Origin: a virus
Direction: 5' to 3' (one strand)
Length of the DNA: 64,000 bases
Virus record (IMG/VR): IMGVR_UViG_3300030118_001869
Span: 1 to 64,000 of that record
Shown: piece by piece, positions 4,159 through 50,534 of the stretch
How positions within the stretch are numbered: position 1 is the first letter of the stretch
Layout of the letters: every line of letters begins with the position of its first letter
The notes under the pieces: model-generated
Databases searched by the model: none
Seen by the model: only the letters and a program-made list of their open reading frames with translations
What the model was told of the DNA's origin: nothing
Program-made: the position numbers and the translations under genes

Positions 4159-4159
4159 G

Positions 4160-4190
4160 TTTATTTTATAATTTATTTTTTGTATATTTA
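4160..4190 (+). promoter_or_regulatory. Putative promoter, TTTGTATATT element
   Basis: TTTGTATATTTA lies at 4179-4190 in the short AT-rich gap after the fibre gene, about 40 bases before the next ATG. A TTT at 4160 lies where other copies have TTG. It is one of five copies of TTTGTATATT found at gene-block starts in this window. Confidence 0.45.
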
Positions 4191-4223
4191 ATTATATATT
4201 AGTTAAACTTAAAAAAAAATATT

Positions 4224-27683: not shown

Positions 27684-30600
27684 ATGGCAGAAGAAAGACC
27701 AAACATTAGACCATCTGATCAACTTTTACCAGGTGCGTTAGGAAGTACGACACAAGATCCATTAGTAAATGAAAGAATGGATTCATTACCTATATCAGAT
27801 GTATTTTCAATACCATTAACTGATATACCTGTAGATGGTATGCAAAACCCAGTAAATGAACAAATGTTTGATGCAGCTAGAAGAGCTAATCAATTTATTA
27901 TACCTCAAACATTTACAAGCGGTACAAGAGATGATTCTACAACAGGATTTGATATGTCAGACCCTATGGCTTCTGTTAGAAGAAATAATGTTTCTCTTCA
28001 ACCAGACAAACCTTTACCTGAAATACCTAGATATTTTAGTGCTGCTGATACAGGATTTGATAGATATTTTGCACACAACAAATTTACTGAGTTAGGTTTT
28101 ACACCATATAATCCAAACACAGAGGCAATTTACAATAGCAATTCTGGATTAACTGATGATATGGAAAGGATGCGTGGTGAGTTTTCTGGTTTGTTTGGTA
28201 ATGCTTTTATGAGTGGTTATAGAGCTATAGGTGATCTATTTACAGGTGAGTATGGAGATCCTGACTTTGAAGGAGCAATGGCTTTTGAAAATGCTATGCG
28301 AGTTGGTAACACAACCAGAGATGGTGTAGGTGCTTTTACTAACAACTTTCTTTTAAATAGTGCTTATACAATGGGTATTATAGGTTCTATTGCAGTAGAA
28401 GAATTAGCTCTTGCTATGGGATCCGCTGCTATGACATCAACTGGTGTAGGTGCGCCAACTGGTATAGGTGCTTTTGTTGCAGGTACTTTTAGAAATCTAA
28501 AAAGAACAGGTAAGGCTATTAAAGACACATTTGCTATTGGTAGAATGGCATCAGCTACCTATGATATGATTAGAGGATTTAATAGTGTAGATAGAGCAAG
28601 AAACTTTTATCAAGCTGTAAAATTAGGTAAGCAACCTGTTGTTAAATTTTTATTGCCTGGTACTATGCGTGCTATAAGAGATCTTAATAGTAGTAAGAAA
28701 TCTATACAGTCATTGGGTAATATTGGTAAAGGAGCAATTGCATTTGGAGGATTTTATAGGGATTTAAGAGCATTGAACTTAGCTATAGCAGAAAGTAAAA
28801 TGGAATCTGGTATAACATATAATGAACAATATGCTAATGCAGTAAATATAGCACAGAAAAAATTAGGAAGAGAACTTACATTTGCAGAATTAAGTAAAGC
28901 AAATGATAATGCAGCACAGGCAGCATTTAGAACATTGCAATGGAATGCACCTGCTATATTTCTTACAAATCAGATTGTACTAAGAAGATCACTAGCAGGA
29001 TTTGGTGGCAGACTTGGTAGAATATTTGATGAGTCACTAACTAATCTTGGTAGAAGAATTGTAAGAACTAAGCCAGTTAGAGACGCTGCAGGTAAAGCAA
29101 GTAAAGATGTATTTGAAGACGCAGGTGAAGGTTTCTTAGGGTTGCCTTCTCTGAAGAGAATAAAGTCTTGGACAGTTGGTGGTACAGCTAGATTAGGTGC
29201 TCATGGTGCATTAAGATATTTTGCTGCTAATATATCAGAAGGTTTACAAGAAGTATATCAAGAAGCTGTTAATGTTGGAACACAAGATTATTTTTCAGAG
29301 TTGTTAGAAAGCAATTCAGCTCAAGATATTAATGCTATGTGGGGTGGTATTAATCAAAGCTTTTTTGGAGGACTTGGTCAAATAAACTTAGGTAAAGGTA
29401 TAGGAGAGCAAATGTCTGCACAAGGTTTTGAAACATTTATGTCAGGTTTTTTGATGGGTGGTTTAGTACAAGGACCTCAAAGGTTTGTATTTGGGTTTGT
29501 ACCAAATCAATTTAACAGATTTACTAATCCAGAACAGTATAAAGAATACCAGAAACAAAAAGAAGAATATATAAAAAATCTTGTAAAAACCTATAATGAT
29601 GCATACAATGAAAGTTTAGACAATCCTGATTTTCAATGGAATGATAAAAAATTAAACTTTGCTGCAATTCATGACGCAGCAAAAGAAATGGATTCCTATA
29701 ATTATGAAGGTGATCCATTAGGTTTCTATGACGCTAAAGATTTTATAAAGTTTCAAAACTACCAGCGTCTATTTGACAATGGTGCACACATAGAGTTTAC
29801 TAGAGGACTAAGAGATCTTACAAACCTAAGCGATGAAGAACTAGCACAAGCATTTCCTGAACAAAAAGAAGATGCTTTAAGTGGTAAGTTAAGAACTAGC
29901 TTAGAAAATCAGATAAAAGAAATAAATGATAAGGCTGATAGATATAAACAATTTAAGTCTAAGTACGAAAACAAGTATGATCCAAATAGATATGAAAAAG
30001 ATACAAGAGAATATTTTCAAGAGCTTGTAAAGTATAGAGCATTTGAGCATGCTAAATATCTATATCTATTTACAGAAAATGGTTTTGAAAGAGCACTAGA
30101 AAGAAGTAATAAAATATATAGTGAGCTAGCATCAGATCCATTATTATCTAAGATAGAAGCAAATGATTTACAACTTCTTGCTGATGCACCATCTATTCAA
30201 AATGAAATAAACCTGTTATTACAAGAAATAGATACATTAAAGAATACTCCAGGTAATAAAAGATCAGAGATAGCAGCAAAGAAAAGAAAGATAAAAGCTT
30301 TACAAAACTACTTGGGTGTATTTACAGCTAAAGAGAATCAAATTAAAGATGGTAGTAGATATAGTAGAACACCAGCTAATATTAAAAAATTAAGAGCTGC
30401 TTTATTAAACTATGTAAATACTATTGCAGAAGAAAGAGGTGACTTTGTAAATATACAAAACATAGATAGTGCACTTAGAAAGTTAATTGATTATGGTGAG
30501 TTAAAAGGAAGAACACGTACTTATGATAAAGCTATACAAATATTAGCAGATCCTAAAGCATTAGATAAACTTGCAGAAAGGATTGAGCCTATAATGGAAA

Positions 30601-33600
30601 ACTTATTTAATAATAATAAGAAAATATTTAGGAAGTTAATTAGACAAAAAATAGCAAAGACTGAAAGAACAGAAACATTAAAGGCTTTAGATAAACTTGG
30701 TATATTAGTGCCACCAGGAGAGGCAATGGAGTTTATAATGACTGGTGATGTAACTAAACTAAAAACTTTTGAAAATAGAAAAGGTAGAGTTACAGAAGAA
30801 GGTAGTCCAGAATTATTTCAAGCAGTACAAGAAATTTTATTAAAGTATGAAAAGCTTGTTACACCTGAAGAAGTAAAAAAAGAAGAAGAAGCACAAGATA
30901 CTCAAGACTTTGAGAATGCTAAAGCTACACAGGAGCAAGACTTTAATGATGCAGCAGAATCAGGTAGCCCTTTACCTGCAATAAATACTGATTTAATTAC
31001 TGATAGAGAGTCTAAAGTATTAAATAAACTATATGAAAAATATAAAAAGTCTGTTGCTGCTGATGGTAATATACTTACAGAAGATCAATGGTTAGAACTT
31101 AACAGTACCAAGAGACAGTATAATGGTATGCAAAAACTGTTTAAGTTATATGATGATGCTGCTAGTAAGATGCAGCCATCTGGGGTATCAACAGCAGAGG
31201 GGCAGGAAATAGGTGGTCCAGCACTAACATTTGATGAGTGGTATAAAGATAATAGAAACAGTAAGAATGTTAGATTAATCTTATTAACTAATGGATTAGC
31301 TGCTTCAGACTTTGTAGAAGGAGAAAAAGCTGCACAACCACCAAAGTTACCTCCAAATCAAAAGTTTATAAAGAAGGGTAAAGGGATAAACATACTAGAG
31401 ATTACACTGGTAGATCCACAAGGAGCTACTAGAAAAATTTATAGAATAGTAGATAATGATATACAACCAGTATCTCCTTCTTTATATCAAAGAGCTAATC
31501 TAGATAATGTTGATGCACATGCTAATATACAGTCAGCTGATAAGGTGTTTAATATGCTAAACAAGTTTGTTGCTGAAGACACTAAATATAACTTTGACGG
31601 TATAGAACTTGGATACGGAGATACAATAATAGATGACAAAGGCCAAAAGTATTTTGTTATTGGTACGCCAAATAATGTTGTTGATGGTTCTAAACTAAGA
31701 GTAAGAAAGTTATCAGATAGTACAGAAATACTACTTGATGAGGTAGGGTTTGCAGAAACATACAAGAAGGATGACAGATCATTTAAGGAGAAGATTGATA
31801 GACCAGAAAAGACTAAGATTACTAGAATTAAAACAGGTGAGCTAAATAGCATTTATCCTGATAGAACAAAGCCTAGTGCTATATATGATTTGATTGATGA
31901 CGCTGACTTTGATATCAACAATATAAGCTTTAGTGTATTTATTAATCCTGAGAGAGCAGAGGCACCATTTACAATCCCTGGATCTACTTTACAAGCTAAC
32001 CCATTTATTAAAAAACTAGGTGACAAATATACTGTAGCAGTTAAATACAAAGGTGAGACAGTAGGATTTGTAGCAAATGGACAGTATAAATTTGAGTTTG
32101 AAGGCAAACCTTTGAACTTAAACTCTAGTCAAGATAGCCTGCAGTTCTTATTTGATATGAATAAAGCTGACATTGTTGAACAAGTTTTAGCAGCACAACA
32201 TTTAGAAGCTACTCTAGACAAGCTGTATAAAGGAAAGACAGGAACAATAGATTTAAGTGTAGAAGATTTAAAGAAAGAAGGTATTAACTTTAATCTTAGA
32301 GGTGAAATATTTAACTATGAAGGAACACCTAAAGCATTAGATACTTATGAAAATAATACATTTGAAGGTGGTCAACTAATAATTATTAGGAGAAAAACTG
32401 CAGATGAGTTTGGTAATTTAGTAATTACTACAGATTATGTTTCTGGATTAGAAGAAGGAGCACAAGAGCAATTTGAAAAAGCAATCAAAGAAATAGATCA
32501 AGATAAAAAGCTTAAAGAACAGCTATTAAGAAAAGGTTATACAGCTGTTTCAAGAAGACTTAATGGAAAAATACTTTTAATACCTCTTGATGTAGACTCT
32601 GACGCACAAGAATTCCAAGACTTATTAGGAGAAATATCTGAAAAATCTAAAACTTTAAGTACAACTAATATAGATGATAAGGGTAAAGTAAAAGATGCTG
32701 CTGCGTCAAAAGAAATAAATGCGGATATAAAAAGCAAAGTGTTTATTTCTGGCAAACCTGGTGATAAACTAACACTATCAATCAATGCAAAAGGTGATGT
32801 TATACTGCAAGGTAAACAAGGTGGTAAAAGTGTCAATGCAAGCCTAACAGCAGAAGAGTATTCTATTAAAGGATTCAAAGGCTTGATAGATAAGTTTAAT
32901 GAAAAGGGCAATATATCAACTAATAACTTTAGAGTTAATATACCTAAAGAAGCAACATTACAACAAATAAAAGACTCTACTACCTCTACTCTGCAAAGAA
33001 TCAGACCTGCAACAAATAGAGTAATATATTTTAGTGTAGACTCTGAAAGAAAAGAATCATCTAAGATTATTGAGAATCCACAACCTAAAGATCAAAATAC
33101 TAAAACAAATGACAAAGTAGACTTAGGTAAGGTATCAGAGATGTCTAAGAACTCTGATACAGTTGCACCAACTGACCAAATAGCTGAAGAGGTTAATGCT
33201 GCTATAGCTGCTAGAGATGCACTTAAGAAAAAAATATACAAAGAAGCAAAAGCTCAAGGATTAAATAGAGGTAAAGCACTAAAAGAAAGTAAAGAGTATA
33301 AAGCTGCTGTAGAAAAAGTAAATGAAGCAAAGAAAAAATTAAATGGTGAAGCATATAAAATATTACCTGAGAACTTTAATGGAGTTGAAACAGAGAAAGT
33401 AGATGCTTTTATAACTTGGGCTAATGAAAACTTACCAGAGTTTATTACTGTTGGTAATGTAAATGAAATAGGTAACAGGCTAAAGAACAATGGTATAACT
33501 GCTGGTGCATTTATTATGGCACTCAATGATATAGCAGGTAAAGTAAATATTAATGGTACCATATATGTAGGCACACATGGTTTCAGATACCATGAAGCAT

Positions 33601-36600
33601 TCCATTCTGTATTTAGAATGCTATTGACACCTGAAGAACAAAAGCAATACTTAGCTATTGCAAACAAAGAGTTGAGAGCTAAGCTAAGAAGAGAGGGTAA
33701 AAACTTTGAGGTTGAGTTACAAAACTTTAGAAATCTATCTGCACTATATAAAGGATTTAGTAGAGCAAGACTAGAGCAAGAGTTTTTAGAAGAATATATG
33801 GCAGATGAATTTGAGAAGTTCAAACAAGGACCTAAAAATTCTACTGCTGGCGGATTTATTAAATCTTTATTTACAAGAATACTTAACTGGATTAAGACTG
33901 TACTAGGAGGATTTAGTAAGAATCAACTAAAAACTCTGTTTGAAAACATAGATGCAGGTAAGTATAAGTCTAGGGGTATTGCTAATAATATGTTTACTAA
34001 TGCTTTGACACAAGGTATTACAGTTGATGCATATAAACTTCTACCTACTAAAGAGATAGCAGGAGACAGAAGAATAACATATGAATACCTAGATCCTAAT
34101 ACTGCAACGTTTTTAGTAAATAGTTTTGTATCAAGATTAATACAATTGAATGATAAGCCTGGGAGTAGATCATTAACTGAGATAGAAGATCAAGTATTTG
34201 ATGAGTTTGCTGACTTATATGACTCAACTAATTCTAGGTATGATAATATAACAGATGAGCAATATGACAGACTATTAGAGATAGAAGAAGCAATCAACTA
34301 CATGTCTGATACATCTTCTGCAGACTCACGTCCTCAGCTGATGTTAGCTGCTAGAGAAATGATAGATACATTCCAGCTTAAGTTAGATAATAATGCTGAT
34401 ATAAATGAAGTCTTTGAAAATAATCTAGGCCTTAGAACTACAGATCAGTTTGATACTGATGCTAGTATGAAAGGTGGTGTAACAGCTTTACCATTAAAGT
34501 TAAGACTATATATTGCTACAACAACCTTAGAAGATACAGACTACTTTGGTAATCAATTCTTAATTGATCCCGTTACTGATGAAAAAGGTAATATAACTAC
34601 AGAGGGAGAAAAACTAATTGTTCCAGTTGATATAGATGCTGTATATAATGGTATACTAAAAGCAGTGAAAAACAAAACAGATGCTTTTGACATATTATCT
34701 AGCTTATACGTATTTGGTAGAACAAATAAACACACTAAAGCATTTGTTGACAGATTGTTCAATGATATGGGTATAAATGGTGAAGAAATGATTGAGTCAG
34801 GTCAGTTACCAGAACTTGTAGGAAGACCTGGATTTGTAATGCAAGTAATTAAGTCATTCCAGAATGCAAGAGTAAATTATTTATTTATTCAAACTGACAC
34901 AGCAACAGGTAAAAACTTTTATTATGATGCTGCAACAAGAGATGCTGCTAAAACTCAGCTAGGTGCTTGGCAACAAATGTATGATCAAAAACTTAGTATA
35001 ATAAAGTCAGATCCTAGATTTAAAGGTAGAGTTCAAGCTACACTAAAAAGAGCAATAGGTAGACTTCAAGCAACTAGAGGAAGAATAGATAATACTAAGT
35101 TTGAGCTAGAGGCTATGAGATTATCTCAAGATATATTTGACGCTATAGGTATAAGATTTTCTCCAGCTTATTTGCAATTGAGTATGTTAAAAGCAAGTCC
35201 AGAAAACATAGCTAAAAAAACAAAAGCACAGCAGATATTATTAGATAACAATATTAATGTAAGATCTTTGAGTGTAGAGGATTTGTCTGCAATAAAGGAT
35301 ATTGTATTAGCAGGAGGTAATATATACGCAGAAAGTAGTGGTGCTGCATCAAGACTAACTGCACTAGCAATAGGTAATCAAAAACTAGATGAACAAGTAG
35401 GAGCAACAACATTTACAAATGCAGATGGTAATTTAGTTTATGCACATCAAATGCCTACATTCCATACAAGAATAATAGCAAAATTAAATGATGAAGACTT
35501 TATTGAAGAGTTGATAGAAAGATTCCCAAACAATCCTTTGATACAAAGTGAAGCATTTAGAACACTGTCAGCTGATAATAAAATAGAGCTTATAAGACTT
35601 GCAGGATTTAGAAAAGGTAGAATATCATTATCAGAACAAAATGAGATTATAAGTGATGGTACTAAAAGTGTTGCATATGCTAAAACCTACGGTAAGCAAT
35701 CACCTCAAGAATTTATTATAAACTTAGTAAAAGCATATACATTTAATTTCAATACAAATACTTTACAGAATAAACTAAGTAATGGACAGGCGCTGGTACC
35801 AACATTGATAAGAGTAATGGAAGCAAGTAATACAGGTGATATGATTAATCTACCTGTTATAAAAGCAGCGGAGTTACAAAACAAAACTTTGAGCATACCT
35901 AAAGAGGCACTAGATATATTTGTAACACAGATACAAAATGAATATGCAAGAATAGTTAGAGAAGTGCAGACTCCAACTCAGGATCTAATAGTAGGCTATA
36001 ATGCTGATAACAATGGTGTTTCTACACTAGATACAAAAGATGGTAGAGCATATAAATTGTTTAATACTAGGTATTTACTACCTGCAGATTCTGTAAAAAT
36101 ATTAGAAGAAGAAGCATATAAAGGTACACCATTTGCTGACGCAGCAAAGTTAGCAGTAGAGGGTGGATTTTATAATGCAGTTAAAAAGAGCTTACTAGAT
36201 GAATTTAATAAATTCTTTGACTTGGTAGGTAGTGATATAGCTAATGACGCAGGTTTTATAGCAGGAGTACAAAATGCTGATGGTAGTGTACAAGGAGAAG
36301 ATATAGCTATAGCTAATCAACAACTTAACTTAGTTCCAGGACAGTTTAAATTAAATCTAGCACAGATATATTTTAATGATAAAATTAATACCACTGCAAT
36401 AAATGAACTTATATTAGGTGATGAAGCAGTAACATTAAAAGATTCAATTGATAAAATCAAAAGAGCAAAAGGTCAAAATGGTGCTATACGTTCAATAGAC
36501 TTTGGCTTTACAGCACCAGAGTTAGGTATTAGACACAAATTAGAAAACATAGAAATATATCCTTTTACTGATCCTACATTTGAAAAGCAATCTGGAGAAG

Positions 36601-39600
36601 GAATGCAAGAACAAACTGATGGTCAAATATATAATACTGTAAAAGGATTCAGATATTCACAGTTTGGTATGGGTAATCTTACTGAGTCAATGGCAGATAT
36701 TCTTGATGATGTTCAGTTTGGTGACAATGTTCCTTCTGTAAGAATTAATAGTTATGTTAGTAAACAAAATGCTTTAAATTCTAAAAAGTTTGTATACTTT
36801 GATGGTCAAACATATATGAAGATGTCTAGTATTACTCTTTCTCCTGAGTTTACATCTCTTAAAGATGAGAACGGACTTTATACTATACCTAAACCAAATA
36901 AAGTAGAGCTACATAATCTTAGAGTTAAGATGGAGGCTTATGAAGAAACTAATGATGCTGTTGTCTTTGGTGCGCCTACTAGTGCATTAAAGATGTTAAA
37001 AAAGAATATAGATACATCTGATCAAGCATTTAGTGAAACTGCTTTAACCAAAGGTGATCTAACAACAGTTAAAGCAGAATTTATGGGCTTACAAATGGTA
37101 AATCCATCAAACAAGATTGAGATTACTTCTGGTACACAGATGAGAGTATTGCTTACAAGTGAACAGAATAATGTTGAAGAAGTAACAATAGATGGAGTAA
37201 AACTAAAGGTAAGAGATTTAAGAAATCTTTACAATGATAATATAGCAGGTAAAGTAGGATTAGCATATGGTCTAAAGAAAAAATTATTAATAGATGAACA
37301 AGGTAATATAGATTTATTTACCTTTTTAAAGTATGCAATCAGAAACTTAAAGTCTGCTAAAACAACAAGTAATATCATAGAACAATTTGAGATTGATGAG
37401 AACGGGCAAATGAAGTATGGTCTTAACTCACCACATATGGTAGAAAAAGCAGAGCAGCTATTCTTATCATATTTTAGTACTGCATTAAAAGATAAACAAC
37501 CAGGTATGAGTTTGGCTCTTATGTCAGATGCTGGTGTTAAGATATATAGAAGGGTATTTGAAGTAGATGAGAACGGAGTACCAACTAGATTTGAAGTAAT
37601 TAGAGAGAATGCATTCCATACATCTGGTTTAGCTGCAGACATAAATATATCCACAGATAATTTTACAGACTTACAAAATGCTCTTAAAAATACTGATGCA
37701 GGTGTTATTGTAGTTGATAGACTTAGATCTGATTTAGTAGATTCAGACGGATCAAAATACTCTGAGTTTATTATGCCAGCTCATTTCCAGTCTGTACATG
37801 ATGCTTTTTACAATAATGATCAGCCTTTACCAGATGTATTACAAAAGCATTTTGGTTTACGTATTCCATCTCAGGATAAACATTCCTCTATAAATTTAAG
37901 ACTTGTAGATTTCATGCCACATTATATGGGCTCTACCGGTGTATTTGCTAGAGAAATACTAGAGAGATCTGGGGCTGACTTTGATATTGATAAGCTATAC
38001 ACACATATGAAAGAGTTCTATGCAGAAGATGGAAAATTCTTTGAGTATGGTAAAAATGGATACAAGGATTATATGACTTATGTAGATAAAATGCTTTTAT
38101 CTGGTAAACCTAATATATTCAAAGACGCTTATGAAAAGTACAGTCAAGGTGTAGATAATGTAAAACCAGAGGATGTGAAAGCTGAAGTTCTCAACACATT
38201 AGGATTACCTATGACAGAGGAAGCTTATGATGCATATGTAAAAGAAAAGGGTGAACCATACGCTGCAGCTTACTCAAATAAAGACTTAGATTATAAGTAT
38301 GCTCTTTTAGGTAGTAAAGCAATGACAGAAGCAGCACCCGGTGAGACACCAATAGTTGCACAAGAAGCTGCATTGTCAAGATTACAAGCAGCTAGAACAT
38401 ATATGGAAAAAGAGGTTCCTGAGTGGGCTGCAGAAAATGCTGACGTAGATGTAGATGTTAATGGACTATTAGGTAAGTTTTTATCATATAAGAATAACAA
38501 AGAAGGAGCAGCAAACATTGGATTAGCTGTTAAACCTAATCTTGTATATAGTATAATGAGAGAATATAATGTTACTAATGATTTTAGAAAATCATTTACT
38601 ATAAATAAAAATAAAGCAGGAAATTTTGTAAGTAAAACTGAAAAAGAAAGAACAGCAATATTATTTGATGAGCTTATAACTGCAATGGTAGATAACGCAA
38701 AAGAAAGAATGGCAGTTAAGTTAGGTCTTAATAAAGAAAATTTACCTTTAGTATCTGCTGCAGTTGCAGTAGGTATACCATTGAATGACATAATATTATT
38801 TTTGAATGCTCCACTATTTAAACAAGATCCTAGACTACCAGCTATTGATGGTAAAGCTGTTTCTATAACTACAACAGAGATATTAAAAGATTATAAAGGC
38901 AAATCCTCTAGGGAGATACAACGCAAAATGAAGCAAATAAAATCAAGGTTAACTTCCATAGCTGCTGAAGCAAGAACTATGGGCTCTGTTATGAACTTAG
39001 ATAAAGGATTAGGAAAAGATTTTTCTAGTGTTTTGCAAACATCAAATGAAATAGCAAGATTAACAGATGATGGAACAGATGTGATATACAAAACATACTT
39101 TAATCAATACATAGAAATATTTGAAGATATTACTGATAATGTATTACCAAAAGTATTTTTTAGAGCTAATCCTAGATTTGTAGCTGCATTATCTAATATT
39201 TTAAAAGAGCAGGTATCAAGAACATTATTTGACACAACTAATCAAATCAATCTACAAAAGGTAAATAAAATATCATTAGACTTTTTGTCTTTCTTATTAA
39301 TTAAAAAATATCAAGATAAACTTTTAGAAAGCAATAGTAAAAGCGTAGGTTCTTTAAGTAATGAATTTATATATGAAACTGGTAAAGGAGAGTCTGTTAT
39401 TGATGTTGTAAAAAAATTAAGAAAGCTTTCAAAACAAGATAATTATTTCTTAAATAATTTCTTACAAACAGTAGAAGCAACAGATCCTAATAGCAAAGAT
39501 GGTTTAAATAAAGTAGTATCTAACACCTTTGCTAGATTAAGTGATAATCAAAAAGTCAAAATACAGAATGGTTTTGCAGCATTGTATGGAGATGCACTTA

Positions 39601-40535
39601 CAAGACCAGATGCAATAAAATTATTACACTACATTATAATCAAAGATGGCTTACAATTTAATACGGGATCTATAATGGAAGCATTATCACCATTTGTACT
39701 AGAACACTTTTTAGATAAAACACAAGATGGCATAGAGGTTACAGATGAACTAAGAGATGAGTTTATTAATGGGTATTTTGCAAGTCCAACATCACAAGGA
39801 TATTTGACAACAATACTTCCTAAAGATGTAAGCGACAGTAAAAAAATAGTAGATAAAAAAGAAACCTATAGTTTTGACCCTGAACAAGCTTTTGAAACAG
39901 GGATAGAAGGTCAAGAATATATAATGATTGGCAACGGGTTATTCAAAAAACAACCAGCAACTAGTAAAAATATTGATTATGCTAGAGTTGAGTTTATGGG
40001 TAGTGTAGGTCAAAATGGTATTGGTTTTATGTTTAATACTCCAGGATTTCAAAGACCTAGTACTAGAAGCATACAGAATAAACAAGACAACAAATCATCA
40101 AAAAATCTAAAAGAAACATTAGCTGATCAAGCTGAACTAAATAGATTAGATGCATTAGGTTTTGATCCTGGTGCAGATATCACAGCTAATGAAAAAATGA
40201 TAGAAGTTGGCAAGCAAAAAATTAGTAACTTAGTAAAAGAAAGAACTGAGGCAGTAGAAGTACCTGAAGAACAAGCAGATCAATTTGATTCTGTTGAGGG
40301 AGAAGTTTTACCTCAAACAACTAGTAAGATAAGAGATTTACTGAAAAGTAAAACAGGTATTAATGAACAAGTACTAGGAGACTTTTGGAACAGTGAGATA
40401 AATGATAACCAAGAAAGAAAACAAAAGCTTGGATATGACACATATGGTAATATGCTAGCTGCATACAGAAGTGTGAATAATGTGTTTCCATTAACAGAAG
40501 AAGAGTTTATAGAACAAACAAGATGTAAATTTTAA
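27684..40535 (+). CDS. Giant polyvalent protein: zincin metallopeptidase plus virion RNA polymerase, 4283 aa
   Basis: One uninterrupted frame of 12.85 kb. Residues ~170-340 are hydrophobic/Gly-Ala-rich (GIIGSIAVEELALAMGSAAM and TSTGVGAPTGIGAFVAGTF), possibly membrane-active during ejection. Residues 1970-1974 form a HEAFH zinc site, with a likely Glu ligand in EEYMADEF near residue 2036, a layout known from peptidase domains of phage polyvalent proteins. Residues 3432-3436 are D-F-D-I-D in the context RSGADFDIDKLY, the metal-binding catalytic motif of the crAss-like virion RNA polymerase (phi14:2 type). About 850 residues follow it, close to the ~820 I recall in that enzyme, so residues ~2050-4283 would be the polymerase and the first ~2050 an extra peptidase/cargo part. 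Role: ejected with DNA to transcribe early genes (established for the phi14:2 enzyme, inferred here). Confidence 0.8.
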   Translation: MAEERPNIRPSDQLLPGALGSTTQDPLVNERMDSLPISDVFSIPLTDIPVDGMQNPVNEQMFDAARRANQFIIPQTFTSGTRDDSTTGFDMSDPMASVRRNNVSLQPDKPLPEIPRYFSAADTGFDRYFAHNKFTELGFTPYNPNTEAIYNSNSGLTDDMERMRGEFSGLFGNAFMSGYRAIGDLFTGEYGDPDFEGAMAFENAMRVGNTTRDGVGAFTNNFLLNSAYTMGIIGSIAVEELALAMGSAAMTSTGVGAPTGIGAFVAGTFRNLKRTGKAIKDTFAIGRMASATYDMIRGFNSVDRARNFYQAVKLGKQPVVKFLLPGTMRAIRDLNSSKKSIQSLGNIGKGAIAFGGFYRDLRALNLAIAESKMESGITYNEQYANAVNIAQKKLGRELTFAELSKANDNAAQAAFRTLQWNAPAIFLTNQIVLRRSLAGFGGRLGRIFDESLTNLGRRIVRTKPVRDAAGKASKDVFEDAGEGFLGLPSLKRIKSWTVGGTARLGAHGALRYFAANISEGLQEVYQEAVNVGTQDYFSELLESNSAQDINAMWGGINQSFFGGLGQINLGKGIGEQMSAQGFETFMSGFLMGGLVQGPQRFVFGFVPNQFNRFTNPEQYKEYQKQKEEYIKNLVKTYNDAYNESLDNPDFQWNDKKLNFAAIHDAAKEMDSYNYEGDPLGFYDAKDFIKFQNYQRLFDNGAHIEFTRGLRDLTNLSDEELAQAFPEQKEDALSGKLRTSLENQIKEINDKADRYKQFKSKYENKYDPNRYEKDTREYFQELVKYRAFEHAKYLYLFTENGFERALERSNKIYSELASDPLLSKIEANDLQLLADAPSIQNEINLLLQEIDTLKNTPGNKRSEIAAKKRKIKALQNYLGVFTAKENQIKDGSRYSRTPANIKKLRAALLNYVNTIAEERGDFVNIQNIDSALRKLIDYGELKGRTRTYDKAIQILADPKALDKLAERIEPIMENLFNNNKKIFRKLIRQKIAKTERTETLKALDKLGILVPPGEAMEFIMTGDVTKLKTFENRKGRVTEEGSPELFQAVQEILLKYEKLVTPEEVKKEEEAQDTQDFENAKATQEQDFNDAAESGSPLPAINTDLITDRESKVLNKLYEKYKKSVAADGNILTEDQWLELNSTKRQYNGMQKLFKLYDDAASKMQPSGVSTAEGQEIGGPALTFDEWYKDNRNSKNVRLILLTNGLAASDFVEGEKAAQPPKLPPNQKFIKKGKGINILEITLVDPQGATRKIYRIVDNDIQPVSPSLYQRANLDNVDAHANIQSADKVFNMLNKFVAEDTKYNFDGIELGYGDTIIDDKGQKYFVIGTPNNVVDGSKLRVRKLSDSTEILLDEVGFAETYKKDDRSFKEKIDRPEKTKITRIKTGELNSIYPDRTKPSAIYDLIDDADFDINNISFSVFINPERAEAPFTIPGSTLQANPFIKKLGDKYTVAVKYKGETVGFVANGQYKFEFEGKPLNLNSSQDSLQFLFDMNKADIVEQVLAAQHLEATLDKLYKGKTGTIDLSVEDLKKEGINFNLRGEIFNYEGTPKALDTYENNTFEGGQLIIIRRKTADEFGNLVITTDYVSGLEEGAQEQFEKAIKEIDQDKKLKEQLLRKGYTAVSRRLNGKILLIPLDVDSDAQEFQDLLGEISEKSKTLSTTNIDDKGKVKDAAASKEINADIKSKVFISGKPGDKLTLSINAKGDVILQGKQGGKSVNASLTAEEYSIKGFKGLIDKFNEKGNISTNNFRVNIPKEATLQQIKDSTTSTLQRIRPATNRVIYFSVDSERKESSKIIENPQPKDQNTKTNDKVDLGKVSEMSKNSDTVAPTDQIAEEVNAAIAARDALKKKIYKEAKAQGLNRGKALKESKEYKAAVEKVNEAKKKLNGEAYKILPENFNGVETEKVDAFITWANENLPEFITVGNVNEIGNRLKNNGITAGAFIMALNDIAGKVNINGTIYVGTHGFRYHEAFHSVFRMLLTPEEQKQYLAIANKELRAKLRREGKNFEVELQNFRNLSALYKGFSRARLEQEFLEEYMADEFEKFKQGPKNSTAGGFIKSLFTRILNWIKTVLGGFSKNQLKTLFENIDAGKYKSRGIANNMFTNALTQGITVDAYKLLPTKEIAGDRRITYEYLDPNTATFLVNSFVSRLIQLNDKPGSRSLTEIEDQVFDEFADLYDSTNSRYDNITDEQYDRLLEIEEAINYMSDTSSADSRPQLMLAAREMIDTFQLKLDNNADINEVFENNLGLRTTDQFDTDASMKGGVTALPLKLRLYIATTTLEDTDYFGNQFLIDPVTDEKGNITTEGEKLIVPVDIDAVYNGILKAVKNKTDAFDILSSLYVFGRTNKHTKAFVDRLFNDMGINGEEMIESGQLPELVGRPGFVMQVIKSFQNARVNYLFIQTDTATGKNFYYDAATRDAAKTQLGAWQQMYDQKLSIIKSDPRFKGRVQATLKRAIGRLQATRGRIDNTKFELEAMRLSQDIFDAIGIRFSPAYLQLSMLKASPENIAKKTKAQQILLDNNINVRSLSVEDLSAIKDIVLAGGNIYAESSGAASRLTALAIGNQKLDEQVGATTFTNADGNLVYAHQMPTFHTRIIAKLNDEDFIEELIERFPNNPLIQSEAFRTLSADNKIELIRLAGFRKGRISLSEQNEIISDGTKSVAYAKTYGKQSPQEFIINLVKAYTFNFNTNTLQNKLSNGQALVPTLIRVMEASNTGDMINLPVIKAAELQNKTLSIPKEALDIFVTQIQNEYARIVREVQTPTQDLIVGYNADNNGVSTLDTKDGRAYKLFNTRYLLPADSVKILEEEAYKGTPFADAAKLAVEGGFYNAVKKSLLDEFNKFFDLVGSDIANDAGFIAGVQNADGSVQGEDIAIANQQLNLVPGQFKLNLAQIYFNDKINTTAINELILGDEAVTLKDSIDKIKRAKGQNGAIRSIDFGFTAPELGIRHKLENIEIYPFTDPTFEKQSGEGMQEQTDGQIYNTVKGFRYSQFGMGNLTESMADILDDVQFGDNVPSVRINSYVSKQNALNSKKFVYFDGQTYMKMSSITLSPEFTSLKDENGLYTIPKPNKVELHNLRVKMEAYEETNDAVVFGAPTSALKMLKKNIDTSDQAFSETALTKGDLTTVKAEFMGLQMVNPSNKIEITSGTQMRVLLTSEQNNVEEVTIDGVKLKVRDLRNLYNDNIAGKVGLAYGLKKKLLIDEQGNIDLFTFLKYAIRNLKSAKTTSNIIEQFEIDENGQMKYGLNSPHMVEKAEQLFLSYFSTALKDKQPGMSLALMSDAGVKIYRRVFEVDENGVPTRFEVIRENAFHTSGLAADINISTDNFTDLQNALKNTDAGVIVVDRLRSDLVDSDGSKYSEFIMPAHFQSVHDAFYNNDQPLPDVLQKHFGLRIPSQDKHSSINLRLVDFMPHYMGSTGVFAREILERSGADFDIDKLYTHMKEFYAEDGKFFEYGKNGYKDYMTYVDKMLLSGKPNIFKDAYEKYSQGVDNVKPEDVKAEVLNTLGLPMTEEAYDAYVKEKGEPYAAAYSNKDLDYKYALLGSKAMTEAAPGETPIVAQEAALSRLQAARTYMEKEVPEWAAENADVDVDVNGLLGKFLSYKNNKEGAANIGLAVKPNLVYSIMREYNVTNDFRKSFTINKNKAGNFVSKTEKERTAILFDELITAMVDNAKERMAVKLGLNKENLPLVSAAVAVGIPLNDIILFLNAPLFKQDPRLPAIDGKAVSITTTEILKDYKGKSSREIQRKMKQIKSRLTSIAAEARTMGSVMNLDKGLGKDFSSVLQTSNEIARLTDDGTDVIYKTYFNQYIEIFEDITDNVLPKVFFRANPRFVAALSNILKEQVSRTLFDTTNQINLQKVNKISLDFLSFLLIKKYQDKLLESNSKSVGSLSNEFIYETGKGESVIDVVKKLRKLSKQDNYFLNNFLQTVEATDPNSKDGLNKVVSNTFARLSDNQKVKIQNGFAALYGDALTRPDAIKLLHYIIIKDGLQFNTGSIMEALSPFVLEHFLDKTQDGIEVTDELRDEFINGYFASPTSQGYLTTILPKDVSDSKKIVDKKETYSFDPEQAFETGIEGQEYIMIGNGLFKKQPATSKNIDYARVEFMGSVGQNGIGFMFNTPGFQRPSTRSIQNKQDNKSSKNLKETLADQAELNRLDALGFDPGADITANEKMIEVGKQKISNLVKERTEAVEVPEEQADQFDSVEGEVLPQTTSKIRDLLKSKTGINEQVLGDFWNSEINDNQERKQKLGYDTYGNMLAAYRSVNNVFPLTEEEFIEQTRCKF

Positions 40536-40537
40536 TT

Positions 40538-43500
40538 ATGGCATGTTTTAATAAAAATACAGCAGAGTACAAAGAACTAAAAGCAGAGTTTGGTCAGGAT
40601 ATAATTGTTGACGCAGCAATTATCAATTACCAAAGAACTACTAATAGTACTATTATACCTAATCTTGTTCAGGTACAGCAAATGGAATCTGATATGAAGG
40701 TAATGTACTCAACTATGAAGAGGGAGTTTGGTCAAGCTTTAGTAAGAAACCTAATTGAAAAAAAGCTAGCCACTAAAAAATACAAAGGATACCATTATGT
40801 AAATGCTACTGACGGCCTAAGCTTTGTTGCTAATCAAAGTATACTGAATAAAAATATTGAAAAGATATATAAATATTTGGATGCTAATAATATTCCTGCG
40901 GATACAGTTAGTATAGAGAGAACTAAGAGATCAGCACGTATAACAGTTAATGATGGTCTCTTTAAGATAAATGATATAGTTCCTGAGAACAGACCTGCGG
41001 ATACTACAAGGACTCTTGCAATAGTAGAACATCTAGGAAGAATGTTTCCACAAGTTCAGATAGATGTTGTATCTGTAGCACAAGCTAGAGAATACTATAA
41101 CTCTTTAGACCCAAGACAAAAGGCTAGAGTAAAGTTTGATGATATAAAATCATATTATGTAAATGGTAGAGCTGTCCTAATTCAAGGTAGAGTAAACTCT
41201 AATACTGCAATAGAAGAAATACTACATCCATTTGTAGATGCAATAAAAGTAGAGAACTCTGAGTTGTTTGATAACCTATTAGAAGAATCCAAAGAAACCT
41301 TTGCAGAACTAAAACAACAGATAGATGATACGTATAGTAACAAAAATGGATTTAATCAATTACATAGAGATCTAGAACTAGTTACACAATCATTAACTAG
41401 ACACTTTGCATTAGAGTATGAGACTACACCTTCTCAATCATTCTTACAAAGAGTAAAGGATTTCCTTGCATGGTTTGCAGGAGTTTTAAACAACTTACAT
41501 AAGTACATTACGGGTGATGCTACGCCTGTATTTAAGGTGAGTCAGATTCAAGCAAGAACAAATCTTTCTGACATAGCAAAGATACTTAACACAACTGATG
41601 TAAGTTTTCAGCTGGAAATGAAAGCAGATGGAAAGGTTAGATATGCTTTATCACCTGAAAAGCAGAAGATAGTAAATCATATTAAAACTCAAGCAAATGA
41701 TACTCAAAAGCAGATAATAGATAGACTTTTTAGTATTGCACAAAAACAATCAGATAGTATTGACTCACTATCAGCAGGGTCAGTAGTAGGTGAAAGCATT
41801 GTAATACTAAATGAGGAAAACCACACTTATTATGATATCACAACAGGTGAAGCATTTACATCCGCCACAAGAGCTATTTATGGTAAGTTAGAAAATGAAG
41901 CAGAGCTACAGGAAAACTTAGCAGTAGGTAATGACTTTGATGCAGTTGTAAATGCTATTTTATCAGATATAACTGCAGACCAGTTATTTGAAGATTTACA
42001 ACAAGTAGAAAACAGTAAGTTTAAGAATGACAAAGCACTAGTAGATAAAGTCTATACTGATATAAGTACATTTTTATTAGGTTTAAGAGCAGATGGTACT
42101 GTTTTCATACCCCAGGTAGTTGTATTTGATAAGAACGCTAAAATAGCAGGAACTGCAGATATTGTAGGAATTACACCAAAAGGCACAATAAAGATTATAG
42201 ATCTTAAGACTAGCAAAACACCGTATGCTAGCACTGCAAGAGAACAGTACAAAAGACAATGGGCTGTACAAAATGATAGTTTTCTAAAACCAAAAGGTGT
42301 AGAAATGTTATCTACTAGAGCTAGACATGGTATGCAAGTAAATATGTATAGAAGAATGTTTGAGAATATGGGCTATGAAGTTGAGACAGGTCCTTTTTCT
42401 GCACAGACATTCCATATTCATGTAGATATCTCAGGCAAAGGTGTAAATCAAAAATTCTTAGGTACATATAGAATGGATGGTATGGTAGTGCATCCTCCAT
42501 CTTTAAATCAAGATTATATTGATATGCTGATACCTGAAGATCCAGATATTATAGCACAAGATAAAATAAAGGAGATAAGAAAACAAGGTAGAATGTATGA
42601 TCCAGTAAATGATCCTGATTTTATAGAAGATGATTTAGAGTATCCAACAAGCCCACAGTTTGACCAAACGAGATATCAAAGTATTAATAGTAGTATAAAA
42701 AATTATCAGAAACATTTACAAGAACGTAAGCAAGCCCTAGAAAATTATAAGAAAAGATTATTTGTAGATAAGACGAATGAACAGGCATTACAGTATACGA
42801 ACAATGCATTAGCCACTATAATGCTTGCGTTGGATACGACTAACCCTGATCAAGTTGCACTACAAAGTAATGTTTTTGTTCAGCTTATACGTGATGCAAT
42901 AAAGGAGATGGACACATTTCTTAACTTTATAAAAGATGAAAAGAACTTTAATGATCCTAACTTTATTACATATTTATTGAATATTAAAAAGTTTACTAAC
43001 TCTTACCTTGCTTTAAGAAGTATTTCTGAGTCAGGTATTCTCAATAAGACAGAGGGACAACTATTAAATACACTTACTACTAAAGTACAAAGCTTGGACG
43101 GCACTGATTATGATCAAGGCTTGATAAGACAAGCAATGTTAGACTGGGCCGAGAACTATGTAAAGAATAACTCTAACAGAGATTTTACTAAAGAACAGCT
43201 AAAAGATCTTGTGAGACAAGCAGAAGATATTAGTTTTCTAGATTTAAATACCAGAGACTTAGCTACTTTGCCTGACACACTACTTGCTCTTATTGCAAAA
43301 GAATTTAGTAGAGCCAGATTAAGAGGACAGGCTAGAGCAGAAGAGGCAAATACAAAGACAAGAGCTTTGGGTAATACATTATATAGACTTAGTGATAGTA
43401 AAAAACCAGAAGAAGTTTTTGAGTTTATGGCTGAAATGGATAATGGTAAGTTTACAGGAAGATTTGTACAAAAACTAGGTGATAAATATTATGGTAAGTT

Positions 43501-46228
43501 AGAAGAGCTAAGATCTAAACTTGTTCATGAAAATGGAGATTGGAAAGAGTATAGAGAAATCAAAAATTTAGAAGAGGATGTAGAAGATATAAAATATAAT
43601 TTAGAGTTGTATGCAGATAGACAAGCACATGCAGCATTTTGGAGAGCAGAAACTAAAGATGAAAACGGTAACCCTGTAGCAGGAGAGTTTCATGAGTATA
43701 CACAAGAGTGGAAAGATATTAGATCTAAGTATATGAGTTTTATTCCACAAGGTGAGAATGGTTATTGGATATTCAAGGCGGGTATAAAACCTGAGCAACA
43801 AGAAGAATTTTACTTAAAACACTATGATGTAGTAGAGGATGGGCAAATTATGGAAAAGAAAAATGGTGTGCCTACAGGTAGAATGATACCTGCTAAACTA
43901 CAGTTTCCAAAAAGAAAATACAGACAAGCTAGAGCTGACAGAACAGATTTACAAAGTGATAAGTATAATAAACTTATGTCTGACAATACTGCTTTAGGTG
44001 TAGCAAGAAGAGATTTTTATAATCACTTTATGCAAGAGTATAACAGACAACTAAAGAAGTTACCTATGTCTGTCAGAGATCAAATGTTAGGATATGCTCC
44101 TATTGTACAGGGTCAAATATTATCAGAAGCACGTAAAAAAGGTATTCTACCAGCGTTCCTTAGAACCATGGGTAGACAAATAAAAGATACATTTACATCT
44201 AGCATGTCATTTAGAAGGGTAGCAACAGATGAAAATGGTAATTTAATTGATTCAATACCTATAATGTTTGTGGGTAGACCTAGAACAGATAAACAATTAC
44301 AAGTCATAGATGATAAGATAGCAGAAGTAGAACAAGCTAGAAAGGATGGAACTCTTTCAGGAGAAAAATATCAAGCAGAGATTTCACGGCTAACTAGTCA
44401 AAGAAAAGCTGTCCTTGGAAAACCTAGAGCAGATGAAGTAAGTATGGACTTTGCTGATTCCTTGATCAAATTTACTGGTATGTCATCTATGTATGAAGCT
44501 ATGGATGACATAGAAGATACACTTCTTGGTATTAAAGAAATAGTAGATAAGAGAACTTATAGAGAAAATGAGTCAAAAGGTGTTATTAGATATGTAAAAG
44601 GAACAAGAGATTTCTTTGCTGGTAAACGAGGTAACAAATCCAAAGAACAAGAAAATACAAAGAAAAGACTAGCCGCATGGTTTTCAATGGTATTTTATAA
44701 TAGTGATGAAATGTCAAGAACAAGGTTAGATAAACTTACAAATGCTGCCATATCATATTCTTCTTTATCATACGTTGCATTTAACGCAATAGGTAACTTA
44801 AACAACTTAGCTATTGCATCTGCTAACAACTCTATAGAAGCTCTAGGTCAAAGATTCTTTTCAAGAAAGAATTATGCTAGAGCAAACGCTGAGTTTTATG
44901 GATTGAATGTAGCACAAGGTTTAATTAAGAGATTAGGTATGTCATCAATAAAAGGTGGTGGAGATAGATATGATCCTAAAAAACCTATGAACAAATGGGA
45001 GGCAATGGCATTAGATAATCAAATGATGGATGCTTATGCAGATATACGTGAATCTATTCAAGGTCAAGGAGCACTAAATGATGATTTCTTTACATACTCT
45101 GGCTTTATGGACAGACTTAAAACTTTTGGTTATTCTTTACAGGATGCTGCTGAGTACAAGGTACAAACAACTGTAGGTACTGCACTACTTATGGATTTAA
45201 CAATGATGAACAGTACAACAGGTGAAAGAATGAGTTACTATGATGCGCATGATTTTGACTCTAAAACTCAAACAGTAAAATTAAAAGAAGGTTTTGATAC
45301 TGTTGTTGAGAAAAGCTTAACAGGTGAAGAAACTCTAGTTCCCTTCACTGAGAATTATAAGTTTGATTTAAGAATGAAGATCCGTGAAGTTAATAAACAG
45401 ATTCATGGTAACTATGCAAGAGAAGATAGAACAGTATTACAAAGACATAATATTGGCCAGTTAATATTTCAGTTTAAAAAATGGTTGGCCCCTGCTATTA
45501 GAGCTAGATGGCAAAGAGAATACTATGATGAAAATCTAGGATGGATGGAAGGTAGATACAGGTCTGCCTTAAGATTCTTTGCATACTTTATGAAACAGGT
45601 TGGGCAAGCTAACTTTAGAGCTGCTAACTTTAGAGATTATATGAAGTCACAATATGGTAAAGAAGGTACAGGAGCTCAAGAACAAGAAAGATTACAGAAT
45701 CAAGTAAAGGGTATTCAAAGAACAGTTGCTGACATATCTATGATAGCAGCTGCTCTTTTAACTCATTCATTACTCATGGCTCTATTTGAAGATGATGATG
45801 ATGATATGGATCCAACTCTTAGAAGATTAAGGAACCTTGCTATTTATCAAGCTGATAGAACATACAAAGAACTTGTAATGTTTATACCTGTAACAGGTAC
45901 AGCAATAAATCAAGCAGGTGATTTTATTAGTGATCCTATAGCATCTACTAGAAACTTAGGTGCAATAGGTGAAGCACTTAGTTCATCTATGTATTTTGGT
46001 TACAGAAAACTTAAAATGGCATCACCTGTTGGTGGACTAGATGGTGAGTGGGGTATATCAAGAAGAGAGCATAGAGCTTTACTTGAAGACTCTGACTTAT
46101 ACTATCAGTATAAACCTAGAAAGGGAGATCTCAAAGCATGGAAGGAAATTAGAGATGCCGTACCTGCATTATATACTATACAAAAGTGGGAAGGGTTCCT
46201 CAAACGTCAAGACTTCTATATTGATTAA
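40538..46228 (+). CDS. Giant polyvalent cargo protein with PD-(D/E)XK nuclease domain, 1896 aa
   Basis: Residues ~535-560 read AGTADIVGITPKG then IKIIDLKTSKTPY, i.e. D541 ... D555-x-K557, the core of RecB/Cas4-like PD-(D/E)XK nucleases. Earlier, EEILHPFVDAI at 226-236 looks like a degenerate peptidase helix (EExLH instead of HExxH). The central third is helical and Lys/Glu-rich; the C-terminal ~500 residues include hydrophobic stretches (LSYVAFNAIGNLNNLAIASA, then MIAAALLTHSLLMALFEDD) as in large polyvalent proteins that pass through membranes. It begins 2 bases after the RNA-polymerase gene and is probably co-packaged. A nuclease ejected early could degrade host DNA or process phage ends (inference). 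Confidence 0.7.
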   Translation: MACFNKNTAEYKELKAEFGQDIIVDAAIINYQRTTNSTIIPNLVQVQQMESDMKVMYSTMKREFGQALVRNLIEKKLATKKYKGYHYVNATDGLSFVANQSILNKNIEKIYKYLDANNIPADTVSIERTKRSARITVNDGLFKINDIVPENRPADTTRTLAIVEHLGRMFPQVQIDVVSVAQAREYYNSLDPRQKARVKFDDIKSYYVNGRAVLIQGRVNSNTAIEEILHPFVDAIKVENSELFDNLLEESKETFAELKQQIDDTYSNKNGFNQLHRDLELVTQSLTRHFALEYETTPSQSFLQRVKDFLAWFAGVLNNLHKYITGDATPVFKVSQIQARTNLSDIAKILNTTDVSFQLEMKADGKVRYALSPEKQKIVNHIKTQANDTQKQIIDRLFSIAQKQSDSIDSLSAGSVVGESIVILNEENHTYYDITTGEAFTSATRAIYGKLENEAELQENLAVGNDFDAVVNAILSDITADQLFEDLQQVENSKFKNDKALVDKVYTDISTFLLGLRADGTVFIPQVVVFDKNAKIAGTADIVGITPKGTIKIIDLKTSKTPYASTAREQYKRQWAVQNDSFLKPKGVEMLSTRARHGMQVNMYRRMFENMGYEVETGPFSAQTFHIHVDISGKGVNQKFLGTYRMDGMVVHPPSLNQDYIDMLIPEDPDIIAQDKIKEIRKQGRMYDPVNDPDFIEDDLEYPTSPQFDQTRYQSINSSIKNYQKHLQERKQALENYKKRLFVDKTNEQALQYTNNALATIMLALDTTNPDQVALQSNVFVQLIRDAIKEMDTFLNFIKDEKNFNDPNFITYLLNIKKFTNSYLALRSISESGILNKTEGQLLNTLTTKVQSLDGTDYDQGLIRQAMLDWAENYVKNNSNRDFTKEQLKDLVRQAEDISFLDLNTRDLATLPDTLLALIAKEFSRARLRGQARAEEANTKTRALGNTLYRLSDSKKPEEVFEFMAEMDNGKFTGRFVQKLGDKYYGKLEELRSKLVHENGDWKEYREIKNLEEDVEDIKYNLELYADRQAHAAFWRAETKDENGNPVAGEFHEYTQEWKDIRSKYMSFIPQGENGYWIFKAGIKPEQQEEFYLKHYDVVEDGQIMEKKNGVPTGRMIPAKLQFPKRKYRQARADRTDLQSDKYNKLMSDNTALGVARRDFYNHFMQEYNRQLKKLPMSVRDQMLGYAPIVQGQILSEARKKGILPAFLRTMGRQIKDTFTSSMSFRRVATDENGNLIDSIPIMFVGRPRTDKQLQVIDDKIAEVEQARKDGTLSGEKYQAEISRLTSQRKAVLGKPRADEVSMDFADSLIKFTGMSSMYEAMDDIEDTLLGIKEIVDKRTYRENESKGVIRYVKGTRDFFAGKRGNKSKEQENTKKRLAAWFSMVFYNSDEMSRTRLDKLTNAAISYSSLSYVAFNAIGNLNNLAIASANNSIEALGQRFFSRKNYARANAEFYGLNVAQGLIKRLGMSSIKGGGDRYDPKKPMNKWEAMALDNQMMDAYADIRESIQGQGALNDDFFTYSGFMDRLKTFGYSLQDAAEYKVQTTVGTALLMDLTMMNSTTGERMSYYDAHDFDSKTQTVKLKEGFDTVVEKSLTGEETLVPFTENYKFDLRMKIREVNKQIHGNYAREDRTVLQRHNIGQLIFQFKKWLAPAIRARWQREYYDENLGWMEGRYRSALRFFAYFMKQVGQANFRAANFRDYMKSQYGKEGTGAQEQERLQNQVKGIQRTVADISMIAAALLTHSLLMALFEDDDDDMDPTLRRLRNLAIYQADRTYKELVMFIPVTGTAINQAGDFISDPIASTRNLGAIGEALSSSMYFGYRKLKMASPVGGLDGEWGISRREHRALLEDSDLYYQYKPRKGDLKAWKEIRDAVPALYTIQKWEGFLKRQDFYID

Positions 46229-48908: not shown

Positions 48909-50534
48909 TTATCCCTCACAACTTGCACATTCAAGTATATTTCTGGAAAAAGCTTGTGCTGAGCTTTGGCTGAACTGATAGTATAATGTCTTTACACCTA
49001 ACTCCCAAGCACTTAGATATAGTTGATTTATATCTTTTGCAGGCACACTAGGATGTATCATTAAATTTAAACTTTGAGATTGATCAATATACTTCTGTCT
49101 TTGTGCAGCTTGTATAATTAATTCTTTAGGTGATATCTCAATAAAAGATTTAAACACAGCTTTTGTAGGAAAGTCTAGATGCTGGACAGACCCATCTTTC
49201 TTTAAAATGTCTTCCCAGGTTTCTTCATTATCTAAACCGTACTTGTTTAACTCTTGTTTTAAGAAAGGGTTTTTGTATATGGTTTTAGTCTTAGCTAAGT
49301 CTTTTATAAAATAGTTAGATTTGATTGGCTCAATACCCATAGAAACAGCACCATGTATGAAACTACTTGATTTAGTGGGTGCTATAGCCATTAGAGTAGT
49401 GTTTGCGTACCCCTCCCTTATACACTCATAACCTTTCTCATTAGCTAAGTATCTTGATGCAACTTCTGATTCTTCTTTTAAATGTTTAAATATCTGATTG
49501 TTTAAACTTTTAGCTTCCATTGACTCAAACTCAATAAGTTTAGATTGTAGTAAACTATGATAGCCTAGCACACCTAAACCTATAGCTCTATGCTTCTTAG
49601 CAAATGTATAAGCTCTTTTTAGGCCAGCCTTTACTTCTGCTTTTGCAATGAACTCATTCATTACAGCATTCAAGAAGAATACATATGTACCTATTGCATC
49701 AGTTTGGATAATATCATCCCAGTGTAATAAGTTTATAGAACCTAAACAACATACAAAAGAGTTGTAACTATCTGTTGGAAGTTGTATTTCTGAACATAAA
49801 TTAGATGCGGTTATCTCTAAACCTAGATCTTTATAAGGAGAATTGTTATTACTATTATCTTTGAACATTATATAAGGGAAGCCAAACTCATTCCTTCTTT
49901 GAATTACTTTGGCCCACAATGCACGCTTCTCTTGATCACCTTCTTTCATTTCATTGAGCCACTGATCACTAACTGTGACACCATACTGTAAATTTTGTAT
50001 TGGGTTTCCCTCAGTTCCAATATCTAGAAAGTCTGCAGCGTCTGGATGTTCAAGTGGTAAATACACTGCACATGCACCTCTTCTTGCCTCAGACTGTTTA
50101 CAAACATCTACAACAGTATCATAGATCTTTGCGTAATGCACAGGGCCATCTGCTAAACCTCCAGTAGAAATTACTGATCCTCTAGGTCTAATGTTACCTA
50201 AGTATGCACTGGTTCCTCCACCATACTTTGACATCATACCTATTTCTCTCCCTGCATTTAGTATACTATCTAAATTGTCATCAACGTTACTACCATAACA
50301 ACTAATAGGTAATCCTTTTTGTTTACCAAAGTTAATCCATACAGGTGTAGATAAACTATAGTAACCCAAAGACATATAGTGCTCAAACTTTTGTGCAAAG
50401 CCTGGCATCTGCAAATACTTTTCTGCTGTATTTGCTATATCTTTTATTCTTTGTTCTGGTGATTCTGATATATATCCTCTTGATAAAAATTTACGGCTAT
50501 CTTCATTTAGCCAATAGTACTTACTAAATTCCAT
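48909..50534 (-). CDS. nrdA: Class I ribonucleoside-diphosphate reductase, large (alpha) subunit
   Basis: Reduces ribonucleotides to deoxyribonucleotides together with NrdB. Visible catalytic residues: C79 in GLPISCYGS, N245-L-C247-S-E249 in ASNLCSEIQLP, C262 in SFVCCLGSINLL (disulphide partner of C79), the Tyr pair Y518-Y519 in TLYYQF for radical transfer, and the C-terminal swinging C536-x-x-C539 (ECASCEG). At 541 residues it is shorter than cellular enzymes because the N-terminal ATP-cone is absent, so it should lack the usual dATP overall-activity inhibition (established logic for cone-less enzymes, inferred here). Its start overlaps the end of nrdB by one base. No active thioredoxin or glutaredoxin gene is seen nearby, so host reductant is probably used. 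Confidence 0.95.
   Translation of the reverse strand: MEFSKYYWLNEDSRKFLSRGYISESPEQRIKDIANTAEKYLQMPGFAQKFEHYMSLGYYSLSTPVWINFGKQKGLPISCYGSNVDDNLDSILNAGREIGMMSKYGGGTSAYLGNIRPRGSVISTGGLADGPVHYAKIYDTVVDVCKQSEARRGACAVYLPLEHPDAADFLDIGTEGNPIQNLQYGVTVSDQWLNEMKEGDQEKRALWAKVIQRRNEFGFPYIMFKDNSNNNSPYKDLGLEITASNLCSEIQLPTDSYNSFVCCLGSINLLHWDDIIQTDAIGTYVFFLNAVMNEFIAKAEVKAGLKRAYTFAKKHRAIGLGVLGYHSLLQSKLIEFESMEAKSLNNQIFKHLKEESEVASRYLANEKGYECIREGYANTTLMAIAPTKSSSFIHGAVSMGIEPIKSNYFIKDLAKTKTIYKNPFLKQELNKYGLDNEETWEDILKKDGSVQHLDFPTKAVFKSFIEISPKELIIQAAQRQKYIDQSQSLNLMIHPSVPAKDINQLYLSAWELGVKTLYYQFSQSSAQAFSRNILECASCEG

Follow-up and report, generated by a model that had tools for sequence, protein, structure and literature searches.

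A giant open reading frame with two enzyme motifs

Does a single viral gene encode both a peptidase and a virion RNA polymerase, and if so, does the one enzyme serve the other? The question is raised by a 64,000-nucleotide stretch of viral DNA (positions 1 to 64,000 of IMG/VR record IMGVR_UViG_3300030118_001869; hereafter, the window), in which one open frame of 4283 codons (27684..40535, plus strand, as are all features of the protein described below; ATG start, stop codon at 40533-40535) runs without an internal stop. The positions were re-derived and agreed with those originally predicted from the sequence: the motif HEAFH occupies residues 1970-1974 and DFDID residues 3432-3436, with 847 residues C-terminal to the latter. 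The figures given in that prediction for the phage phi14:2 polymerase were also right (gp077 comprises 2180 aa, with DFDID at 1361, ~820 residues from the end). Misassembly can be dismissed as its source, given that dozens of contigs from different metagenomes contain this long ORF too. When the 4283-aa protein was shuffled 2000 times with its composition preserved, 1.05% of the shuffled sequences contained HExxH, 6.3% contained DFDxD and 0.1% contained the two together, so that each motif alone is weak evidence and conservation is what counts. Pfam, PHROG and PDB sequence searches with the whole protein gave no match.

Both motifs were found in one ORF in 51 of the 54 sequences of the IMG/VR clade to which the window belongs (31 distinct sequences at 95% in the peptidase region). 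Two of the three exceptions are ORFs that end with the contig; the third (L033) stops early. A gene boundary in L033 was considered and rejected, since its ORF ends inside the polymerase part and shows a 79-column gap against the intact L062, indicative of a local deletion. No close relative of the clade was present in the searched phage collection, and a search of genome contigs confirmed no relatives. The adjacent TerL and portal genes of the same contig matched those of crAss001 (E 1.6e-18 and 1.9e-20, respectively), which places the virus in the order Crassvirales; the crAss001 MCP had no match on the contig at E 0.001 in a single-sequence search, possibly too weak a method.

A predicted crAss-like virion RNA polymerase

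Sequence profiles and the modelled fold identify the C-terminal ~2150 residues (residues 2131-4283; 34074..40532) as a predicted crAss-like two-barrel virion RNA polymerase, bearing out the original assignment of this half. A tblastn search with residues 3001-4283 against 50,697 phage records returned 88 records, nearly all crAss-like, with alignments that cover DFDID and with many of the matched genes named putative RNA polymerase. In HHalign comparisons, a 24-relative profile of residues 2131-4283 matched phi14:2 gp077 (98.8%, E 6.7e-17) and crAss001 gp50 (99.7%, 2.6e-25), and a profile over residues 2900-4283 matched a Suoliviridae profile (99.8%, 1.4e-29); non-polymerase neighbours remained below 3% against the polymerase profile. 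Within the matched region, DFDID (37977..37991), the putative catalytic metal-binding loop of a beta'-type double-psi beta-barrel, is part of a G-x-D-F-D-I-D signature invariant in 21 of 21 aligned sequences. The alignment to phi14:2 begins ~853 profile columns into the 2131-4283 region and, in gp077, at residue 873; similar lengths thus precede it on both sides, which puts the start of the polymerase module near residue 2131.

The structural comparison with the phi14:2 enzyme proposed in the original prediction revealed a polymerase fold around DFDID: the AlphaFold model of residues 2985-4080 (pLDDT 79, pTM 0.78) had a sole significant Foldseek match in the PDB, 6VR4 of phi14:2 (E 2.1e-20, probability 1.00, query TM 0.63), followed by QDE-1 and cellular RNAPs, which were not significant. 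Searched against PDB sequences, the family profile missed 6VR4, although this entry was among them. The frequency of DFDxD in shuffled sequences and the empty Pfam and PHROG searches with the whole protein could be taken to mean that the motifs arose by chance in an unrelated tail or tape-measure protein; this reading has a negligible probability, being already refuted by the structural match to 6VR4 and contradicted by the profile matches.

The N-terminal part of the polymerase contains an insertion hot spot at residue ~2799 (nt ~36080), where relatives carry 140-360 extra residues (L013, L017, L019, L020, L023, L025, L026, L037, L056 and L058). The L037 insert includes an ART-PolyVal ADP-ribosyltransferase domain (E 1.5e-7, above the Pfam cut-off), and that of L056 (IMGVR_UViG_3300030098_004828) a second HExxH (HEQFH). 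The fused protein of L056, 5459 aa, is encoded on a viral contig of 245,646 bases, more than twice the size of the examined crassvirus genomes with the same gene block (90-103 kb).

A zincin-like domain and an N-terminal module

The region around HEAFH (33591..33605), residues 1881-2130 (33324..34073), is homologous to the C-terminal end of crAss001 gp47 (HHalign to gp47 residues 2154-2298, 97.2%, E 3.6e-11) and matched a four-sequence Steigviridae gp47 profile (98.2%, 2.9e-14) and the fused proteins of Suoliviridae (98.0%, 1.5e-13). Across 41 divergent sequences, the predicted zinc ligands H1970 and H1974, the putative general base E1971 and F1973 were invariant, as were Y2038 and E2037, the candidate third zinc ligand, in the downstream EEYMADEF (residues 2036-2043; 33789..33812). 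HExxH...E is the gluzincin pattern. Both motifs fall within modelled helices, confidently so for that of E2037; the general layout of MPTases is given in PMC5512222.

Taken with RefSeq precedent, this makes the predicted zincin identity of residues 1881-2130 well supported by sequence, though not by structure. The peptidase of the original prediction thus stands as a conserved domain with zincin-type ligands and homology to gp47, but neither PDB structure searches nor Pfam nor the MPTase-PolyVal family places it among zincins. The best sequence match was to the Pro-Pro endopeptidase 6FPC (E 0.03), the curated MPTase-PolyVal (PF18818) gave no match even at E 10, and Pfam does not place the domain among known zincins. 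The structure prediction proposed for the surroundings of H1970, E1971 and H1974 yielded the ligand helices in a partly confident model (mean pLDDT 57.7; ~67-95 in the core around the two helices, poor in the rest), for which Foldseek found no significant match in the PDB; among predicted viral proteins, crAss-like proteins ranked top (best E 2.6e-4). HHalign detected no homology of the HEAFH domain to the N4 zincin, the Intestiviridae zincin or phi14:2 gp076. Phage phi17:2, a weak match in the structure search, was rejected as a relative, as its five large structural proteins tested contained no HExxH and gave no match.

The extra N-terminal residues had been proposed to form a second module, and ~2100 residues are indeed best read in this way, the HEAFH domain being homologous to the end of gp47. 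Residues 1-1880 (27684..33323), compared in slices by profile, showed no similarity to gp47 or anything else, and have no detectable homologue outside the clade. Judging from order and length, this region would occupy the position of the N-terminal part of crAss001 gp47, and it is the zincin part, together with order and length, that justifies the label gp47-like. A hydrophobic Gly/Ala-rich segment (residues 201-290; 28284..28553) includes one of the best conserved blocks of the module (~201-250, conservation 0.68), reaches a hydropathy of 1.7 at 226-259 in several relatives, and is a possible membrane-active segment. The junction between the modules can be placed by alignment at residues ~2100-2154 (33981..34145), where crAss001 gp47, which ends 184 residues past the start of HEAFH, would end and the polymerase begin.

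The same cargo proteins are joined differently in different families

The next gene (40538..46228, plus strand) encodes 1896 aa, the C-terminal part of which is homologous to the crAss001 cargo protein gp49 (HHalign 97.1%, 5.6e-11; tblastn E 6e-15). The zincin-like domain, the polymerase and the next gene each have a counterpart in crAss001 (Steigviridae): gp47 ends in a homologous HEAFH domain, gp50 is a homologous polymerase and gp49 matches the next gene. In crAss001, however, these are three separate genes. Separate genes are the rule in Steigviridae, and in both crAss001 and cr85_1, gp47 lies on the other strand. Of four Steigviridae checked that have separate zincin and polymerase genes, three (crAss001, cr85_1 and cr112_1) retain HEAFH, in each case near the C-terminus of the zincin protein. 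The motif was not found in cr116_1 gp47 or phi14:2 gp078, indicating that some crassviruses can do without the peptidase. The phi14:2 polymerase (GenBank gp077, PDB 6VR4, gp66 in PMC10770324) resembles that of the window in fold, catalytic motif and length (2180 versus ~2150 aa) but is a stand-alone gene, and its upstream neighbour gp078 contains no HExxH.

The fusion is not unique to this phage: it is already present in public, annotated crAss-like genomes of Suoliviridae, namely in cr4_1 (KNV51_gp26, 4491 aa), cr118_1 (KNV30_gp14, 4946 aa) and cr130_1 (KNV59_gp79, 5801 aa). As in the window, homologous zincin and polymerase parts form one polypeptide in which HEAFH precedes DFDID at a spacing of 1431, 1475 and 1587 residues, respectively (1462 in the window), and a third large cargo gene follows, of the gp49 type in the window clade, cr4_1 and cr118_1. 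The N-terminal modules of the two groups, in contrast, are not alignable. TAG is read as sense in the fused ORFs of cr4_1 (38 in-frame TAG) and cr130_1 (74); cr118_1 gp14 has no internal stops. The two fused groups were not joined in the polymerase tree (unrooted, with long branches), suggesting that the fusion is either ancestral and was lost, or arose twice. Crassvirus polymerase genes are known to reach ~6000 aa (reviewed in PMC10136315), and fusions of crAss-like vRNAPs with large, functionally uncharacterized proteins have been noted (PMC10770324); in the open-access literature, we found no text on a crassvirus zincin or on the zincin-polymerase fusion itself.

Intestiviridae display another arrangement, with a HExxH-containing protein encoded ahead of a polymerase fused to the gp49 type. 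In cr110_1, KNV37_gp39, annotated in RefSeq as 'putative RNAP associated protein fused to zincin protease', is a zincin-type protein encoded immediately before the polymerase; unlike the window protein, it bears HENLH and is not detectably homologous, and it is the C-terminus of the polymerase that is fused, to the gp49 type. Outside crassviruses, an RNA polymerase and a metallopeptidase domain share one giant virion protein in Thermus phage P23-45 (gp96; PMC10770324), likened here by description rather than sequence, but there the polymerase is N-terminal and fused to the tail tape-measure protein. The injected N4 virion RNA polymerase likewise contains a zincin (HExxH) in the same chain (PMC5512222, PMC12633501), but that polymerase is of the T7 type and its zincin is C-terminal and not detectably homologous. 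The family-specific ways in which crassviruses link these cargo proteins suggest that all three act together in a single entry complex.

Proposed role of the fused protein

The analysis shows that the C-terminal part has the homology and fold of a polymerase, that the zincin-like domain is homologous to gp47, that HExxH...E is conserved, and how the genes are ordered; virion location, ejection and early transcription we infer. In crAss001 virions, gp47, gp49 and gp50 were found by mass spectrometry as cargo (PMC10172136), phi14:2 gp076-gp078 are annotated as structural by MS/MS (GenBank), and the phi14:2 polymerase transcribes early genes (PMC10136315). The window chain is thus very probably a gp47-type zincin-bearing protein and a gp50-type virion RNA polymerase in one polypeptide, with its gp49-type partner encoded next; the fused polypeptide would serve as virion cargo, be ejected and transcribe early genes. 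The fused chain would be packaged in the capsid and ejected through the tail, partly unfolded, after which its C-terminal ~2150 residues would transcribe the early genes; the predicted peptidase would most likely act during entry on an envelope or host protein, or process cargo. This would amount to the likely entry and early-transcription machinery of the window clade.

The different gene arrangements amount to a natural experiment on whether the peptidase works for the polymerase: it is retained where no cut is required. Release of the polymerase after ejection, as originally suggested, is not supported as its main role and is not its conserved function, because crAss001, cr85_1 and cr112_1 keep HEAFH with a polymerase that is a separate gene product. 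For the fused forms, cleavage by the zincin-like domain near residues ~2100-2154, after ejection or at packaging, would free the polymerase at a junction just past the peptidase, a point that coincides with a protein's own C-terminus in crassviruses with separate genes; zincins of polyvalent proteins, that of N4 vRNAP included, have been proposed to act autoproteolytically, and cleavage of P1 DdrB precedes its packaging (PMC5512222). Retention of HEAFH in the three Steigviridae speaks against such self-processing, as do the packaging of the zincin-bearing N4 vRNAP in unprocessed form (PMC5512222) and the junction alignment, in which no conserved cleavage-like motif stands out. We regard self-processing as unlikely, and give a similarly low, slightly smaller probability to the polyprotein reading, in which such a cut by the protein's own zincin would release an active polymerase and transcription would be switched on by proteolysis.

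Tentatively, the peptidase of the fused forms is likelier to act, at entry, on a protein of the host or of the envelope than on its own chain. The zincin would then be an injected effector, a plausible option at somewhat less than even probability, with linkage to the polymerase only a convenience of delivery. Retention of the zincin with or without polymerase fusion fits this role, as do other effector-type insertions in the same protein of relatives, such as the ART-PolyVal domain of L037, and the option is listed by Iyer et al. (PMC5512222); on the other side, there is no known substrate and no likeness was found to a zincin of known target. It is improbable that the HEAFH domain lacks peptidase activity and serves as a packaging signal or survives as a structural relic: the zincin-containing region of N4 is needed for encapsidation (PMC5512222) and some crassviruses have dispensed with the motif, but relic status would not maintain H1970, E1971, H1974 and E2037 invariant in 41 divergent sequences.

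Other features of the cargo block

The 1896-aa gp49-type protein of the window contains a weak PD-(D/E)XK nuclease signal at residues 457-613 (PHROG exonuclease, 2.8e-6). Part of this region (residues 511-611) had a weak HHalign match to residues 1779-1878 of crAss001-type gp47 (42%, E 2.6e-4), and the fused protein of cr118_1 carries the annotation 'exonuclease V'; from one family to another, the nuclease domain may be housed in a different cargo chain. The same 1896-aa protein contains no HExxH, unlike the large proteins encoded downstream of the polymerase in phi14:2 (gp076, HEIMH; L006 498-4763), cr4_1 (gp27, HEILH; L009 22511-27922) and cr130_1 (gp80, HELLH; L066 19493-25717). A 2748-aa protein of Leptolyngbya phage Lbo-JY46 (PP438436, L065 16776-25022) matched the gp49-type C-terminal part (HHalign 93.7%, E 1.8e-7) and contains two HExxH motifs, so that cargo of the crAss type also occurs in a phage whose host is a cyanobacterium rather than a member of Bacteroidetes. 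Right after the cargo block of the window, genes for the large and small subunits of ribonucleotide reductase lie on the opposite strand (48909-51514, minus strand).
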